A stretch of 64,000 nt of DNA from Vanrija pseudolonga (taxonomy: Eukaryota > Basidiomycota > Tremellomycetes > Trichosporonales > Trichosporonaceae). The notes below the pieces were generated by a model. The model searched no databases. It saw nothing but the letters and a program-made list of their open reading frames with translations, and was not told the origin of the DNA. Below are positions 21,094-26,400 of this stretch, piece by piece. The first letter of the stretch is position 1; each line of letters begins with the position of its first letter. Both the position numbers and the translations under genes were made by a program. The stretch spans positions 1,860,001 to 1,924,000 of the forward strand of contig NC_085851.1 in the NCBI RefSeq assembly GCF_020906515.1. The letters are read 5' to 3'.

Positions 21094-21609
21094 GGTACGT
21101 GTGTGCTGGGGCATGCTGGTGCATGCTACTCCCCCGCGACATATGTATCTTCCGCGTCGCCGAGTGCGGCCTCGCCCCGCAGATTACACCCGGGCCGCGG
21201 TGCGGCCAGTTGCCGCAGGTAGCCGGGGCCGGTCGCGTTCTTGGCGGGTCGTCAGCTGGCTTATCGCCCGGGGCGATTCCGCACGTCCGCTGCGCAGGGG
21301 AGGGGAGGGGAAGGGGAACGATGCGCAGCGCGCGGCGCCGTGAATAGCTGCGTCGCCATATGGGTGGCAGCTGCCAGGTGTCGTGGTACTATCGTCACGT
21401 CATGTCGCGATGCCGCCGGCTCGCGGCAGTGATCGTCAGGGATGGATGCATCCGAGACACCGGCTCTCTACCACTCCAGCCACGGCTCGCCAACGCCTCC
21501 ACACCCTCTCACCACCGGACACGACCTCCTCGCCACCTCGGTGCATGCACAGCTCAGCATTGGCGCCCAGTCGCACGCTCATACACACCCAATGAACTCC
21601 ATTTTCATC
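21094..21609. other. Promoter region of the nitrilase gene
   Basis: About 500 bp between nitrilase and tRNA-Pro. It contains the short GGGGAGGGGAGGGGAAGGGG purine run at 21297-21317. No coding feature is supported. Confidence 0.5.
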
Positions 21610-21691
21610 GCGTCCATGGTGCAGTGGTAGCATTTCCGTTTTGGGCGAAGCTGATTACGGGAGGTCCTGGGTTCAAACCCCAGTGGACGCC
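21610..21691 (+). tRNA. tRNA-Pro (anticodon TGG) with intron, copy 2
   Basis: The acceptor GCGTCCA pairs with TGGACGC. The D stem GTGC pairs as G-T, T-A, G-C, C-G. The anticodon stem TCCGT/ACGGG surrounds TTTGGG, giving TGG, with a 10-nt intron after the base following the anticodon. The T arm CTGGG-TTCAAAC-CCCAG is perfect and the discriminator is C. The sequence TCTTTT begins within two bases of the end and is a Pol III terminator. If the stem is shifted by one base the anticodon would read TTG (Gln), but numbering from both the D arm and the T arm favours Pro. Confidence 0.75.
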
Positions 21692-21764
21692 TCTTTTGGC
21701 TCCGGTGGGGTGGAATGTGGCAGTTGCGGCCATTTTGCCCTCTGCCCACACCGCCACTGTTAAC

Positions 21765-22294
21765 TTAACGATCTTCGTGTCCAATCGCCTCAACCTCGCG
21801 CATGAACTCGACGTCCACTCCGAGGTCGACTGTGCATGACTCGTCGTGGTGCAGCCAGCCCCCAATTCCCCATGTCCATCGAGATCCTTGTGTGCGGCGA
21901 CCGACCTCGTACCGACGTCGTCTGGTGGTGCGAGCCGCCCACCGCCTTCGTGCGGTGAACGTCTCGACGGCTCGGCTCCGCCGTGGAAATCCCGTCGCAC
22001 GCACGCCCTCGGTACCGTGATTAAAGAACCAGGAGCCGAGTCTCTCGGTTGCACCGATAAGAATGTGTACATGCAATCCGCAGTGACTGTAGTGCGATGC
22101 AACAGCTTCGAGCTCGTCGGGAGCGAGGTGTCTCCCGAGGGCGTCAAGGCGAGAGGGCGAGAGGATGGGGCGGCGCAGATCACACCGCCCGCGGTCGCGA
22201 TCTCGCTCGGCCCCAGACTGACTGACTGTAAGGGCGCAGGACTGACTCACTTGTCGGTCGCGCCATGCTTCTGTGCCAGATCTGGGCGCGACAT
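21765..22294 (-). CDS. Possible small gene divergent from the peptide precursor (doubtful)
   Basis: An ATG at 22294 opens MSRPDLAQKHGATD and runs into a GTGAGT donor. Further on, a frame reads SRLDALGRHLAPDELEAVAS, then CGLHVHILIGATERLGSWFF. The frame ends with WLHHDESCTVDLGVDVEFMR before a stop at 21765. These pieces have a protein-like mix of residues, while the stretches between them are Arg-rich and may be introns. I could not settle the exon joins, and no domain is recognised. If real, it shares a short divergent promoter of about 230 bp with the secreted precursor at 22526. Confidence 0.3.
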
Positions 22295-22410
22295 CTTTCC
22301 GTGGGCCCGTGCAGGCGACTGACTGCGCCAAGAGGCGGTGACTGTGACGATGATTGGGACGATCGTGCGCGTCTCGTTGTGGCGATGGCGATGACGACTC
22401 TGGTGAAACA

Positions 22411-22416
22411 TAAATA
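22411..22416 (+). promoter_or_regulatory. TATA-like element of the peptide-precursor gene
   Basis: TAAATA within ACATAAATACC lies about 110 bp upstream of the ATG at 22526. The CAAGCAAGCAAGCA leader with no upstream ATG in the last 60 bases suits a highly expressed gene. Inference from position and composition only. Confidence 0.4.
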
Positions 22417-22525
22417 CCTGAGGAGACGGCGACGAGAGAGCTCCTCAACACGAACAATCCCCAGCCCACCACAACTTCACTGCTCTACCAAGAACCACAA
22501 AGCAAGCAAGCACAAGAAACACAAC

Positions 22526-24677
22526 ATGCAGCTCGCCATCGCTTTCGCCATCCTCGCTGCGCTCGCCGCCGCCGCCCCGCTCCCCGTTACGGAGGGTACG
22601 TCGTCGCCTGCATCGCCATCCCACGCATAACCACTAACATCCCAGTCGTCGACGCCAAGACAGGCCTCGCTGCGCGCGACGCCGACCCGCAGGGCTCGGC
22701 TGCCCAGGGCGGCTCCAGCACCGGCTGGAACGGCAACCCCAACGGTTCGTCTGCTGCGAGCGGCAACTCTGGCTCCGCGGGCTGGTACTGGTCGTACGGC
22801 TCCGCCCCTGAGGCCGGTGTCGCCAAGCGCGAGGCCGACCCGCAGGGATCGGCGGCCCAGGGCGGCTCCAGCACCGGCTGGAACGGTAACCCCAACGGCT
22901 CCTCCGCTGCCAGCGGCAACTCTGGCTCGGCGGGCTGGTACTGGAGCTACGGTTCGGCTCCCGAGGCCGGCGTGGCCAAGCGCGACGCCGACGCCGACGC
23001 CGGCGCCCCCGTCCACGCTCGTGAGTTGCACGACCACACCACACACTTACGCACCAGCCCCCATCCACGAGCTGGGCTGGAAGGGCCCCGGTGCTGGCCG
23101 TAGCTGGCCCGCCGCTCAAGGCGCAACGGGCCAGTCTGTCGACGCCGACTGCGACCCCGAGGCCGACACTGGTGAGTCTACGCCCCGTCCACACACTGAC
23201 ATGCTAGCTGGCCAGCTCGCGGGCACCAAGGTCTCGGTGAAGGCCGGCAACTACCCGCCCGTCTACCGCCGCGCGCCGGACGGCACCTGCCAGCCGGTCG
23301 TCGAGAAGGCCAACTGGGCGCCGTATGCGCGTGACGCCGAGGCCGAGGGCAACGTTGAGGCGACTGACGGTGAGTTGAACACATGCCAGGTTTGTATCCC
23401 CACTGACACACACGCAGGCAAGGCCAAGCGCCAGGACGGTGGATCCAACACTGACTGGAACGGCACTGGTTCCGGCTCTGGCTCGTCCGGCGGCGCGGGC
23501 AGCACCGGCTTCTGGATCCCCCAGGCGTACGAGGCTGGCATCTCCAAGCGTGACGGCAACGAGGCGGCCGGCAAGCGCCGCATCATGTATTCGGAGGGCG
23601 GCTCGGGTGAGTTGGCGCCGACACCGCCGCCGAGACCCACTGACACTCCAGCCCCGGCCAAGCGCCAGGATGGTGGCTCCAGCACCGGCTGGAACGGTAC
23701 CGGCTCGGGTTCGGGCTCGTCTGGCGGCGCAGGCAGCACTGGCTTCTGGATCCCGCAGGCCTACGAGGCTGGCATCTCGAAGCGTGATGCGGACGGTGAG
23801 TCGGGCCATTCTGACTGCCACTGACGCAACCGCAGGCGCCCGCACCGAGTACCCCGGCACCGAGTACTACGCCAAGGGCGTGCACGTCGCTGGCGCCAAG
23901 CGCCGCTTCATCTTCGGCGGCAACGACCCCTCCGGCCCCGTCCTCCCGCCCGGTTTCGTCACGACCCCAGCCAAGCGCCAGGGCTACGTCTACGGCGGCG
24001 GCCCCGCCAACGTCAACAACGGCTGGCACGGCGTCTCGGGCGGCGCGTCCGCCCCGCTCGGTAACCAGGCTGGCGCAGGCACGTGGAACTGGTACAGCTC
24101 GGCGCCTTACGCCGGTGTTGCGCGCGACGCTGAGCCCGAGGCGGGTGACAAGGTCGAGGCTCGCGACGCCGAGCCCCAGGGCTACGCTTATGGCGCCGGC
24201 CAGGCGGGCAACACCAACGGCGGGTGGAACGGCGCGTCCGCCCCGCTCGGCAACGCCGCAGGCGCTTCCATCTGGAACTACTACGGCTCGGCCCCGTACG
24301 CTGGTGTCGCTCGTGACGCCGAGAACAAGGTCGACGTCCAGGCTCGTGACGCCAACGCTGACGCCGACGCCGGCGACAAGGTCGAGGCTCGTGACCCCCA
24401 GCCGCAGGGCTACGTCTACGGCGGCGGCCCCGCGAACGTGAACAACGGCTGGCATGGCGTCTCGGGCGGCTCAGCCCCCGTCGCTAACGCCGCCGGCGGC
24501 ACCGTCTGGAACTGGTACGGTTCCGCCCCTGAGGCTGGCATCGCCAAGCGCCAGGCCGTGACGGGCGAGGAGCCCGCTGAGGTGTGGGGCGGCGTCCCCG
24601 CCACACCCGAGATCGTGTCTGGCGGCCCCGAGGTCGTCGTCCAGGGCCAGCCCGAGGTCATCATCGGCCCCGCTTAG
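22526..24677 (+). CDS. Secreted multi-peptide precursor with Kex2-type sites (KEP-like)
   Basis: Seven exons (22526-22595, 22646-23020, 23058-23171, 23208-23369, 23418-23606, 23652-23795, 23836-24677) encode 631 residues, and all six introns are phase 1. Residues 1-17 form a signal peptide. The rest is built from repeated Gly/Ser/Asn-rich modules, each ending in an aromatic cluster and a small-residue tail before a basic site: GWYWSYGSAPEAGVAKR twice, GFWIPQAYEAGISKR twice, then WNWYSSAPYAGVAR, WNYYGSAPYAGVAR and WNWYGSAPEAGIAKR. I count ten Lys-Arg pairs. Several are followed by EADP, DADADA or DAEP, the dipeptides that Ste13-type peptidases trim in yeast alpha-factor. This is the layout of Kex2-processed repeat proteins, such as Ustilago Rep1, and of fungal RiPP precursors. 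No UstY-type oxidase gene lies in the window. Likely products are secreted aromatic peptides of unknown role: signalling, wall coat or toxin-like are all open. Confidence 0.85.
22678..22983 (+). repeat. Two 153-bp tandem units in exon 2 of the precursor
   Basis: Units 22678-22830 and 22831-22983 are the same length and encode 51-residue modules that differ only at the first residue (Asp or Glu). Each ends with the WYWSY core and AKR. Many differences between the units are at third codon positions, so the peptide is kept while the DNA drifts. Confidence 0.9.
23423..23785 (+). repeat. Duplicated 129-bp module on two neighbouring exons of the precursor
   Basis: Module 23423-23551 (exon 5) and module 23657-23785 (exon 6) are each 129 bp and encode 43 residues from AKRQDGGS to GISKR with the FWIPQAY core. 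They sit on separate exons flanked by phase-1 introns, so the exon itself was probably the unit that duplicated. Confidence 0.85.
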
Positions 24678-24834
24678 GCGATGCCCCCTACCCTGCCCAT
24701 ATCGGGCTCCGTACTATTGTCCGTCTCCGTGCCATTGTAGATTGTCGAAAGAGCCATAGTCCAAACATGATGAACACATGCTCAGTGCCTGGGTTAGTGC
24801 CCTCGACTCTATGACACCCATTCATCGCGCTAGG

Positions 24835-26400
24835 TTACTGGAACTGCACCTTGCGCTCGTCAGCAGGCTTGGGTGTGCTACCATCGCTGGCTCCAGCGCT
24901 AGTCTTGCCAAACGCCTTCTCGCGGAGCTCGGCTGCCTTGACGCCCTTCTCCACCTCGGCCTCGAGCTTGTCATAGGTGGCGGCAGCAAGGAGGCGGTCG
25001 TGAAGAACTGGCGGGATGCTGCATGTCAGCGAAGCCCCCGCACGCCGACTCACTCGATGATGCCGCAATCCCGAACCACATCGCCCTGGCGCACGCCGTT
25101 GCGCCGGGGGTCAGTGATCTCGTCCAAGTCCTTGGTCTTGGCCTTGGCCTTGACCTTCTCGTCGACAGCGTCCTTGCCATCTGGTGGCTGCACTGGCACA
25201 GCTGCGTCCTTCCGCCCTTCATCTGCGGTCGGCGGCAGATCATCGCCAGGGAACTTCACAGGGGCAGAGAGGGCATACAGGATGGGCTGGATCGACTTGG
25301 AGGGCGAGGGGGTCAGGAGAACGACGAGAGGGTAGAGGAGAGTCCAACTGGGCGTGTAAGAAGAGTTGTTCTGCCTTGAGTCCGAGTGAGCAACTCACAG
25401 AAGCCAACGCAGGAACGTTCCCTCGCCCCACACCGGCTTGACGACCTCGCTCCTTGCCCAAGGCATGATAACGTTGAGTGCCAAGATGTTGCTCTGGATC
25501 TCGGTGTCTCGCGCCTTTACCAGGGGCTTGTCTGGATCCGGCACGATTTCCTTCTTGCTGTACGTCGCGGACGCCAACGTGTCGAGGATAAGGCGGAGCT
25601 GCGTCTGGAGGAGGAACGACGTGAGTCCGCGCTTGGCGGCCTCTGCCAACGGCCCGGTCTGCCCCACGACCTTCTTGTTCTCCATCTGTGCCTCGAGGCC
25701 CGGGATCGCAGCCGACCAGCCGGGGGACACGAGCGAGATGATTCGGATATTGCGCTCGGGCGGCGCGCGGAGGAGGGAGGGGAGGAGGGCCGTGATGAGG
25801 TGGAAGTGGAACTGATGCGGCGTCCAGTCCTCCTCGACCTTGTCTTTCTCGTCCAGGCCCGGGCGGTACGGTTCAGGAGGAGGCAGGCACTCCCACGCTC
25901 CTCCGAGAACGATGGCGTCGACCCGCCGTCCGCCTTCGCCCGCCGTGCCGTACTGCACTGTCGACCACTTGCGCACAAACTCTCGCACGCCCGTTGGCGT
26001 GGGCGGCAGAGCTTCGCAGTGGAGCTGGGCCAGGGGGTTCTCCGAGGCAGACAGCCTGATGATCTGTAGCATCATCAACAAGTCGTCCGGGAGCGGCGAG
26101 GGCAGTGGAGGGAGGTAGAGGATCTGCGGGGGAGATGGCAGGTGGAGGAGGTGGTGGATCAGCGCCCATGTTGTTGGTTCTGGTGGCGCCTGCTAGGTCA
26201 GCTCACGTCGCATCGCGGTGATTGCAAGCTCCACCCACGGCGATCATGATGAGCTTGCCTGCCCAGTCGCGCTCCCAGATGCACTTCCGTCCGCCGGTAT
26301 ACACCTTGACGGCGTAGGCGGTTGCGCCGACAGCTGCCCCGATCGCGAGGTTGGTGTACGGCAGGTCGTCGAACAATGTCGATGCGTAGTTTACTGGCAT
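24835..26400 (-). CDS. Divergent SDR-like membrane-anchored protein
   Basis: Four exons (26400-26239, 26189-25399, 25347-25054, 25018-24835) give 476 residues. A hydrophobic segment near residues 17-33 (LAIGAAVGATAYAVKVY) is a likely N-terminal anchor. The body has the order of an SDR-type alpha/beta protein: an IVLGGAWECLPPPEP strand, a helix with FHFHLITALLPSLL, the strand RNIRIISLVSPGW where SDRs place the catalytic Ser, and SNILALNVIMPW. The classic TGxxxGxG cofactor motif is not visible and a YxxxK pair is not obvious, so it may have lost catalysis or be a distant SDR such as the fungal DUF1776 group. A second hydrophobic stretch (WTLLYPLVVLLTP) follows, then a charged tail. It converges on the peptide-precursor gene 157 bp away. 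Confidence 0.7.

Follow-up and report, generated by a model that had tools for sequence, protein, structure and literature searches.

The gene LOC62_03G004312 of Vanrija pseudolonga, a basidiomycete yeast of the Trichosporonales, is by its sequence a KEX2-processed repeat protein (KEP), a precursor of similar repeats separated by Kex2 sites (ten Lys-Arg pairs, seven modules). It carries a STE13 signature and is of a long-module type whose peptides do not end in Trp, a type not found outside Vanrija in our searches. At a probability of roughly 0.55, it is best explained as an α-factor-style KEP precursor that yields linear peptides, with signalling as the best guess for their role. α-Factor-style processing is in itself highly probable from the arrangement of cleavage sites, and the release of linear peptides appears likely.

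The window, that is, the whole 64-kb stretch of DNA analysed here, corresponds to C3:1860001-1924000 in the 24.87-Mb V. pseudolonga genome. The gene occupies window positions 22526..24677 on the plus strand, exactly as placed by the first-pass annotation, with the ATG starting at 22526 and the stop codon ending at 24677. Its seven exons form a 1,896-nt CDS for 631 aa, and the hand-spliced translation matched the public predicted protein P0001 letter for letter. The frame is not continuous but is interrupted by six introns of 36-50 nt each, GT..AG throughout; these introns, the X-Ala/X-Pro ladders and the Gln start of all seven modules were absent from the first-pass annotation. Its description of a signal peptide agrees with a putative hydrophobic N terminus recognized by eye and with a similar leader in Vanrija albida (27/35 residues identical). 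The ten Lys-Arg pairs were likewise recovered in the 631 aa, as were the seven repeats in three sub-families: two A modules (GWYWSY), two B modules (FWIPQAY) and three C modules (WNWY, WNYY, WNWY). The features are as follows.

22526-22595, 22646-23020, 23058-23171, 23208-23369, 23418-23606, 23652-23795 and 23836-24677, plus strand: exons, hand-spliced, identical to P0001
22526..22576, plus strand: putative signal peptide of about 17 aa, called by eye, hydrophobic MQLAIAFAILAALAAAA, with a predicted cleavage point
22690..22830, plus strand: module A1, 47 aa with KR, Q start after AR-DA-DP
22843..22983, plus strand: module A2, 47 aa, protein identical to A1, Q start after KR-EA-DP
23432..23551, plus strand: module B1, 40 aa, core FWIPQAY, Q start immediately after KR
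23666..23785, plus strand: module B2, 40 aa, Q start immediately after KR
23907..23972, plus strand: candidate eighth peptide FIFGGNDPSGPVLPPGFVTTPA, unrelated to the modules, flanked by KRR and KR
23979..24125, plus strand: module C1, 49 aa with final R, Q start immediately after KR, single-Arg end (VAR-DA)
24177..24314, plus strand: module C2, 46 aa with final R, after EAR-DA-EP, single-Arg end
24405..24551, plus strand: module C3, 49 aa with KR, after EAR-DP-QP, IAKR end

The module ends read VAKR, ISKR, VAR, VAR and IAKR, and the predicted peptides are 45 aa (A, twice), 38 aa (B, twice), 48 aa (C1), 45 aa (C2) and 47 aa (C3) long. In the seven-module alignment, Q1, one Trp at the centre and the C-terminal motif A..AG were invariant, and each predicted peptide has a GW(N/H)G-type centre (once DWNG) and an aromatic core close to its C-terminal end. 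Identity within sub-families was 100% for A, 95% for B and 64-79% for C, and likeness between them was 52-57% (A/B), 47-53% (C/A) and 31-45% (C/B). The predicted peptides carry a net charge of 0 to -3, consist to 60-73% of Gly, Ser, Asn and Ala with spaced Trp/Tyr, and have a mildly negative hydropathy (GRAVY -0.15 to -0.63).

Ten KR pairs were observed against 0.75 expected, the maximum among 20,000 shuffles being 6. Gln begins all seven modules and is reached from Arg either directly (3/7, after KR) or across exactly two X-Ala/X-Pro dipeptides (4/7; DA-DP, EA-DP, DA-EP and DP-QP). Such Q-ending ladders follow 7 of the 23 Arg residues, compared with a mean of 0.82 and a maximum of 6 in 20,000 shuffles, and counting K as well as R gave P 0.0005. 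Of the X-Ala/X-Pro dipeptides in the whole 631-aa protein, 26 are in phase, compared with a single one in the opposite phase. In the V. albida relative, ladders of 1, 0, 4 and 2 dipeptides follow 4/15 Arg and precede 4/4 modules (P 0.00025); its dipeptides number 16 in phase and 3 opposite, and shuffles reached 25. The seven predicted peptides contain no K or R in 306 residues, compared with 43 in the other 308, a count that is partly built in because the modules are delimited partly by Q and basic sites. A fair gap test for basic-free stretches gave P 0.009 for the window gene and P 0.22 (not significant) for V. albida, whose module a1 contains an internal Arg.

Dipeptides of the X-Ala/X-Pro type between a basic site and the peptide, present here in 4/7 modules, constitute the STE13 signature described for α-pheromones and some basidiomycete KEPs (PMC6339444). 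In mushroom KEPs, STE13-trimmed and pyro-Gln peptides and some cuts at single Arg were seen by mass spectrometry (PMC9769878); the last of these cover the two modules ending in single Arg here. By analogy, the signal peptide would route the precursor into the secretory pathway, where Kex2 would cut after Lys-Arg and, for modules C1 and C2, after single Arg, and Kex1 would remove the leftover C-terminal basic residues. A Ste13-type dipeptidyl aminopeptidase would then strip the X-Ala/X-Pro ladder and stop at Gln, which once exposed at the N terminus may cyclise to pyroglutamate. The expected products are seven linear peptides of 38-48 residues, rich in Gly, Ser and Asn and carrying no charge or a weakly acidic one. 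They may serve as extracellular signals by which cells of the species communicate outside the CAAX/Ste3 mating system.

Kex2-, Kex1- and Ste13-type enzymes were found in the V. pseudolonga genome at the level of domains rather than of resolved orthologues. The genome search returned a DPPIV_N/Ste13-type peptidase match (E 7.8e-93), S10 carboxypeptidase matches at five places, and a single Kex2 P-domain match at C3:1925869-1926039, about 41 kb downstream of the gene and just past the window end. The frame containing the P-domain match has a TAG within the match itself; upstream of it lies a 401-aa frame that looks subtilase-like by eye. The proximity of this domain to its predicted substrate gene is probably due to chance. 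As for receptors, a single locus on contig C1, unlinked to LOC62_03G004312, matched Ste3 in three exons; in Trichosporonales, both STE3 and a pheromone gene are part of the MAT loci (PMC6730849). Ste2 gave 0 matches in a genome search for which no positive control was returned, the same kind of search having recovered Ste3. The 631-aa protein terminates in QPEVIIGPA, without the C-terminal CAAX box of a basidiomycete a-type pheromone.

The protein search proposed by the first-pass annotation yielded a V. albida relative and no match outside Vanrija, the V. albida protein being the only match among the best ~8,000 candidates scored; shorter proteins searched to E 10 gave no relative either. The relative has 394 aa; by our reading it carries a single A module and three C modules and lacks B, and its UniRef entry is named 'Mating factor alpha' (a database name only). 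A counterpart of the candidate eighth peptide lies at the same position as KRR-FIYGGNDPAGPFVPGLLPAV-KR, with the shared pattern FI(F/Y)GGNDP(S/A)GP.... The earlier claim that third positions vary while the cores are kept is upheld by the duplicated modules: A1 and A2 differ in 15/47 codons, with 15 synonymous and 0 non-synonymous changes, and B1 and B2 by 15 synonymous and 2 non-synonymous changes in 40 codons. Divergence is greater in the three C pairs (dS 0.63-0.77, dN 0.17-0.28). The suggested secreted precursor of Kex2-type repeats, selected for its peptides, is supported. Between species, A1 and V. albida a1 are identical at 44/47 positions and the C modules at 37/47, 33/45 and 29/46, compared with 14/17 for the C1-C2 spacer, 13/30 and 47/80 for other spacers and 4/11 for the tail. 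Identity of the modules between species is 63-94%, a range that the leader and spacers do not consistently fall below. On these alignments the A peptide stands out in conservation; the modules as a group do not separate cleanly from all spacers.

V. pseudolonga contains further predicted precursors of this style, which were found with a query built on the α-pheromone-like KEP peptide QSWGGCGGRGTPCW of Trichosporon oleaginosus (PMC6339444) and by one further search. Their six frames were read as single exons.

C1:2449188-2453678, plus strand: tandem cluster of four genes (C1a-C1d), ATGs at 2449188, 2450592, 2451877 and 2453328, with 3, 5, 3 and 4 copies
C2, ATG at 2261297, minus strand: precursor in which a QGQNINGWGINPPYW-type peptide, flanked by KK sites, occurs four times
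C7:2096408-2097508, plus strand: precursor in which QGGFFGGGGSAGGAA(R/H)W occurs 13 times, every copy delimited by KR/KK plus a ladder of X-Ala/X-Pro dipeptides

The contig C1 cluster consists of small predicted secreted precursors with a different Trp-ending peptide in each gene, and the 13 copies in the contig C7 gene occur in 12 DNA versions and only 2 protein versions. Peptides in the six genes include GRWGNEGPADW, FIGWGAISGPPKW, QGWGGGTGGGPGSGWGPPGW, RTFGKGAPHW, QGQNINGWGINPPYW and QGGFFGGGGSAGGAARW. All 32 dibasic sites in these frames follow Trp (KKR counted as one site). Ladder shuffles gave P values of 0.128 (C1a), 0.23 (C1b), 0.091 (C1c) and 0.0035 (C1d), and 0 of 2,000 for the contig C2 and C7 genes; since the proteins are Ala-rich, the ladders of C1a, C1b and C1c are not significant alone, and the case rests on the Trp-dibasic repeats. 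The Trp-dibasic-(D/E)-A pattern was enriched genome-wide (53 matches versus 4 in the control), with 25 of the 53 inside the six genes. The other 28 include 16 true-dibasic matches, in the excerpts of which no repeat precursor was seen. The ladder-plus-Gln pattern was not enriched genome-wide (36 versus 63 for the reversed-pattern control); 5 of the 36 lie in precursor genes (three in the window gene, one in C1c and one in the contig C2 gene). A candidate place at C2:3250494 was dropped, as no precursor was found there on reading. In a genome search with the module sequences, the only match besides LOC62_03G004312 itself was one weak place on contig C1 (E 0.3), which was rejected as a paralog on finding frames without such a repeat by eye.

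The seven precursors together encode 39 predicted peptide copies, 7 from the window gene and 32 from the other six, and the window gene is the outlier among them with its long modules and lack of a Trp end. STE13 peptides with a Trp end are already documented from mushrooms (PMC9769878). Tremellomycetes are reported to be poor in KEPs, averaging 1.00 per strain (PMC7329392), against at least seven STE13-style precursor genes by our count, figures that differ in methods and filters and are not strictly comparable.

Among known systems, the basidiomycete KEPs with STE13 signature are alike in having a secreted precursor, dibasic sites, X-Ala/X-Pro ladders and Gln starts (PMC6339444, PMC7329392, PMC9769878); the differences here are the 38-48-aa modules, the three sub-families, the absence of a C-terminal Trp and the seven exons. 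The spacer between A2 and B1 is 109 aa, longer than the 100-aa spacer limit given for the PMC7329392 survey, so a gene of this kind would probably be removed by its filters. The T. oleaginosus peptide, from a fungus of the same order, shares the Ste13 signature and Gln start but is a 14-aa peptide with two Cys and a Trp end (PMC6339444), to which the six other V. pseudolonga genes are closer in style than the window gene is. Ascomycete α-pheromone precursors such as S. cerevisiae MFalpha1 have the Kex2, Kex1 and Ste13 processing grammar in common with the window gene, which differs in its much longer peptides, in having no Ste2 match and in lacking an MF_alpha domain (none to Pfam E 10 in P0001 and P0002, nor in the five modules searched out of seven). 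A likeness of the C1 and C3 cores to α-factor (W1, W3, P8) was discarded: in comparisons with one 13-aa reference sequence, modules C1 and C3 each reached 3/13 (P 0.02 each), C2 2/13 and A and B 1/13, so that P 0.02 arose in two of five post-hoc comparisons. Cryptococcus Qsp1, a secreted peptide signal from the same class, Tremellomycetes, resembles the present system by description only and is reported to be imported by Opt1 and to act inside the cell (PMC7537855).

Between signalling and a surface coat, signalling as the main role is preferred at near-even odds, the α-factor-type architecture tipping the balance, although three divergent sub-families in one precursor would be unusual for one ligand and one receptor. 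The main rival is that, as in Ustilago maydis Rep1, the same processing supplies Gly-rich aromatic peptides that would assemble at the surface of cells or hyphae, as fibrils or for water repellency or adhesion. Rep1 also consists of Kex2 repeats, and its peptides of 35-53 aa (PMC4617103) fit the 38-48 aa found here better than the short Trp-ending peptides do; the uncharged Gly/Ser/Asn/Ala-rich composition with spaced Trp/Tyr, and the several divergent module types, suit such a coat as well. Rep1, however, is described in PMC6339444 as lacking the STE13 signature that LOC62_03G004312 possesses, and the GRAVY values are mildly negative. A coat of this kind is on balance unlikely, though still the reading to be taken most seriously besides signalling.

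It is quite improbable that the peptides are aimed at other organisms, as antimicrobials or effector-like in soil interactions; the predicted peptides are neutral to acidic and have no basic residue, unlike usual antimicrobial peptides, which are cationic. In favour of that role are the genus-restricted, quickly changing module set, with the B modules missing from V. albida, and the mushroom KEP knockouts without axenic phenotype, for which the authors favour biotic interaction (PMC9769878). The first-pass annotation had also considered a RiPP-type precursor, and Kex2 repeats with Tyr/Trp-rich cores would suit a dikaritin whose aromatic cores are cross-linked by UstYa-type oxidases. This reading is unsupported and very improbable: no UstYa/DUF3328 domain was present in the 30 window ORFs scanned or, in a search without positive control and hence a weak negative, genome-wide.

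The 'undescribed system' of the first-pass annotation holds only in part. No paper about LOC62_03G004312 was found by title or abstract start in the V. pseudolonga, V. albida, Vanrija pheromone and KEX2/Tremellomycetes literature; KEPs, including STE13-signature basidiomycete members, are already described (PMC6339444, PMC7329392, PMC9769878), and what is new is the long-module, non-Trp-ending variant in Vanrija. Such basidiomycete KEPs are known from surveys, and α-factor-type mating is not thought to be used in the phylum. With at least seven such genes, V. pseudolonga would allow the role of α-factor-style peptides without α-factor mating, and any receptor for them, to be studied in a unicellular species. 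Taking signalling further, the precursors might form a multi-channel α-factor-style peptide language outside sex, with the window gene as a divergent branch whose peptides would be long ligands with aromatic cores or would serve the other peptides as a scaffold. This extension is speculative and rather doubtful; as the usual Ste3 is kept and no Ste2 match was found, its peptides would need receptors not yet known.

Within the window, 10 of the 30 ORFs scanned carried Pfam domains, mostly housekeeping: CN hydrolase (adjoining upstream), KAT11 acetyltransferase, WD40 with TFIID_NTD2, Prp3_C, MFS, Pre-SET, GH9, SKIP/SNW and C2H2. No peptide-modifying cluster was apparent among these 30 ORFs, and Rfam reported nothing at gathering score on 21400-25600. 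ARAGORN called a tRNA-Gln at 21610-21691, 0.8 kb upstream of the gene, which was not reported by Rfam at that score; its length of 82 nt perhaps reflects a small intron.
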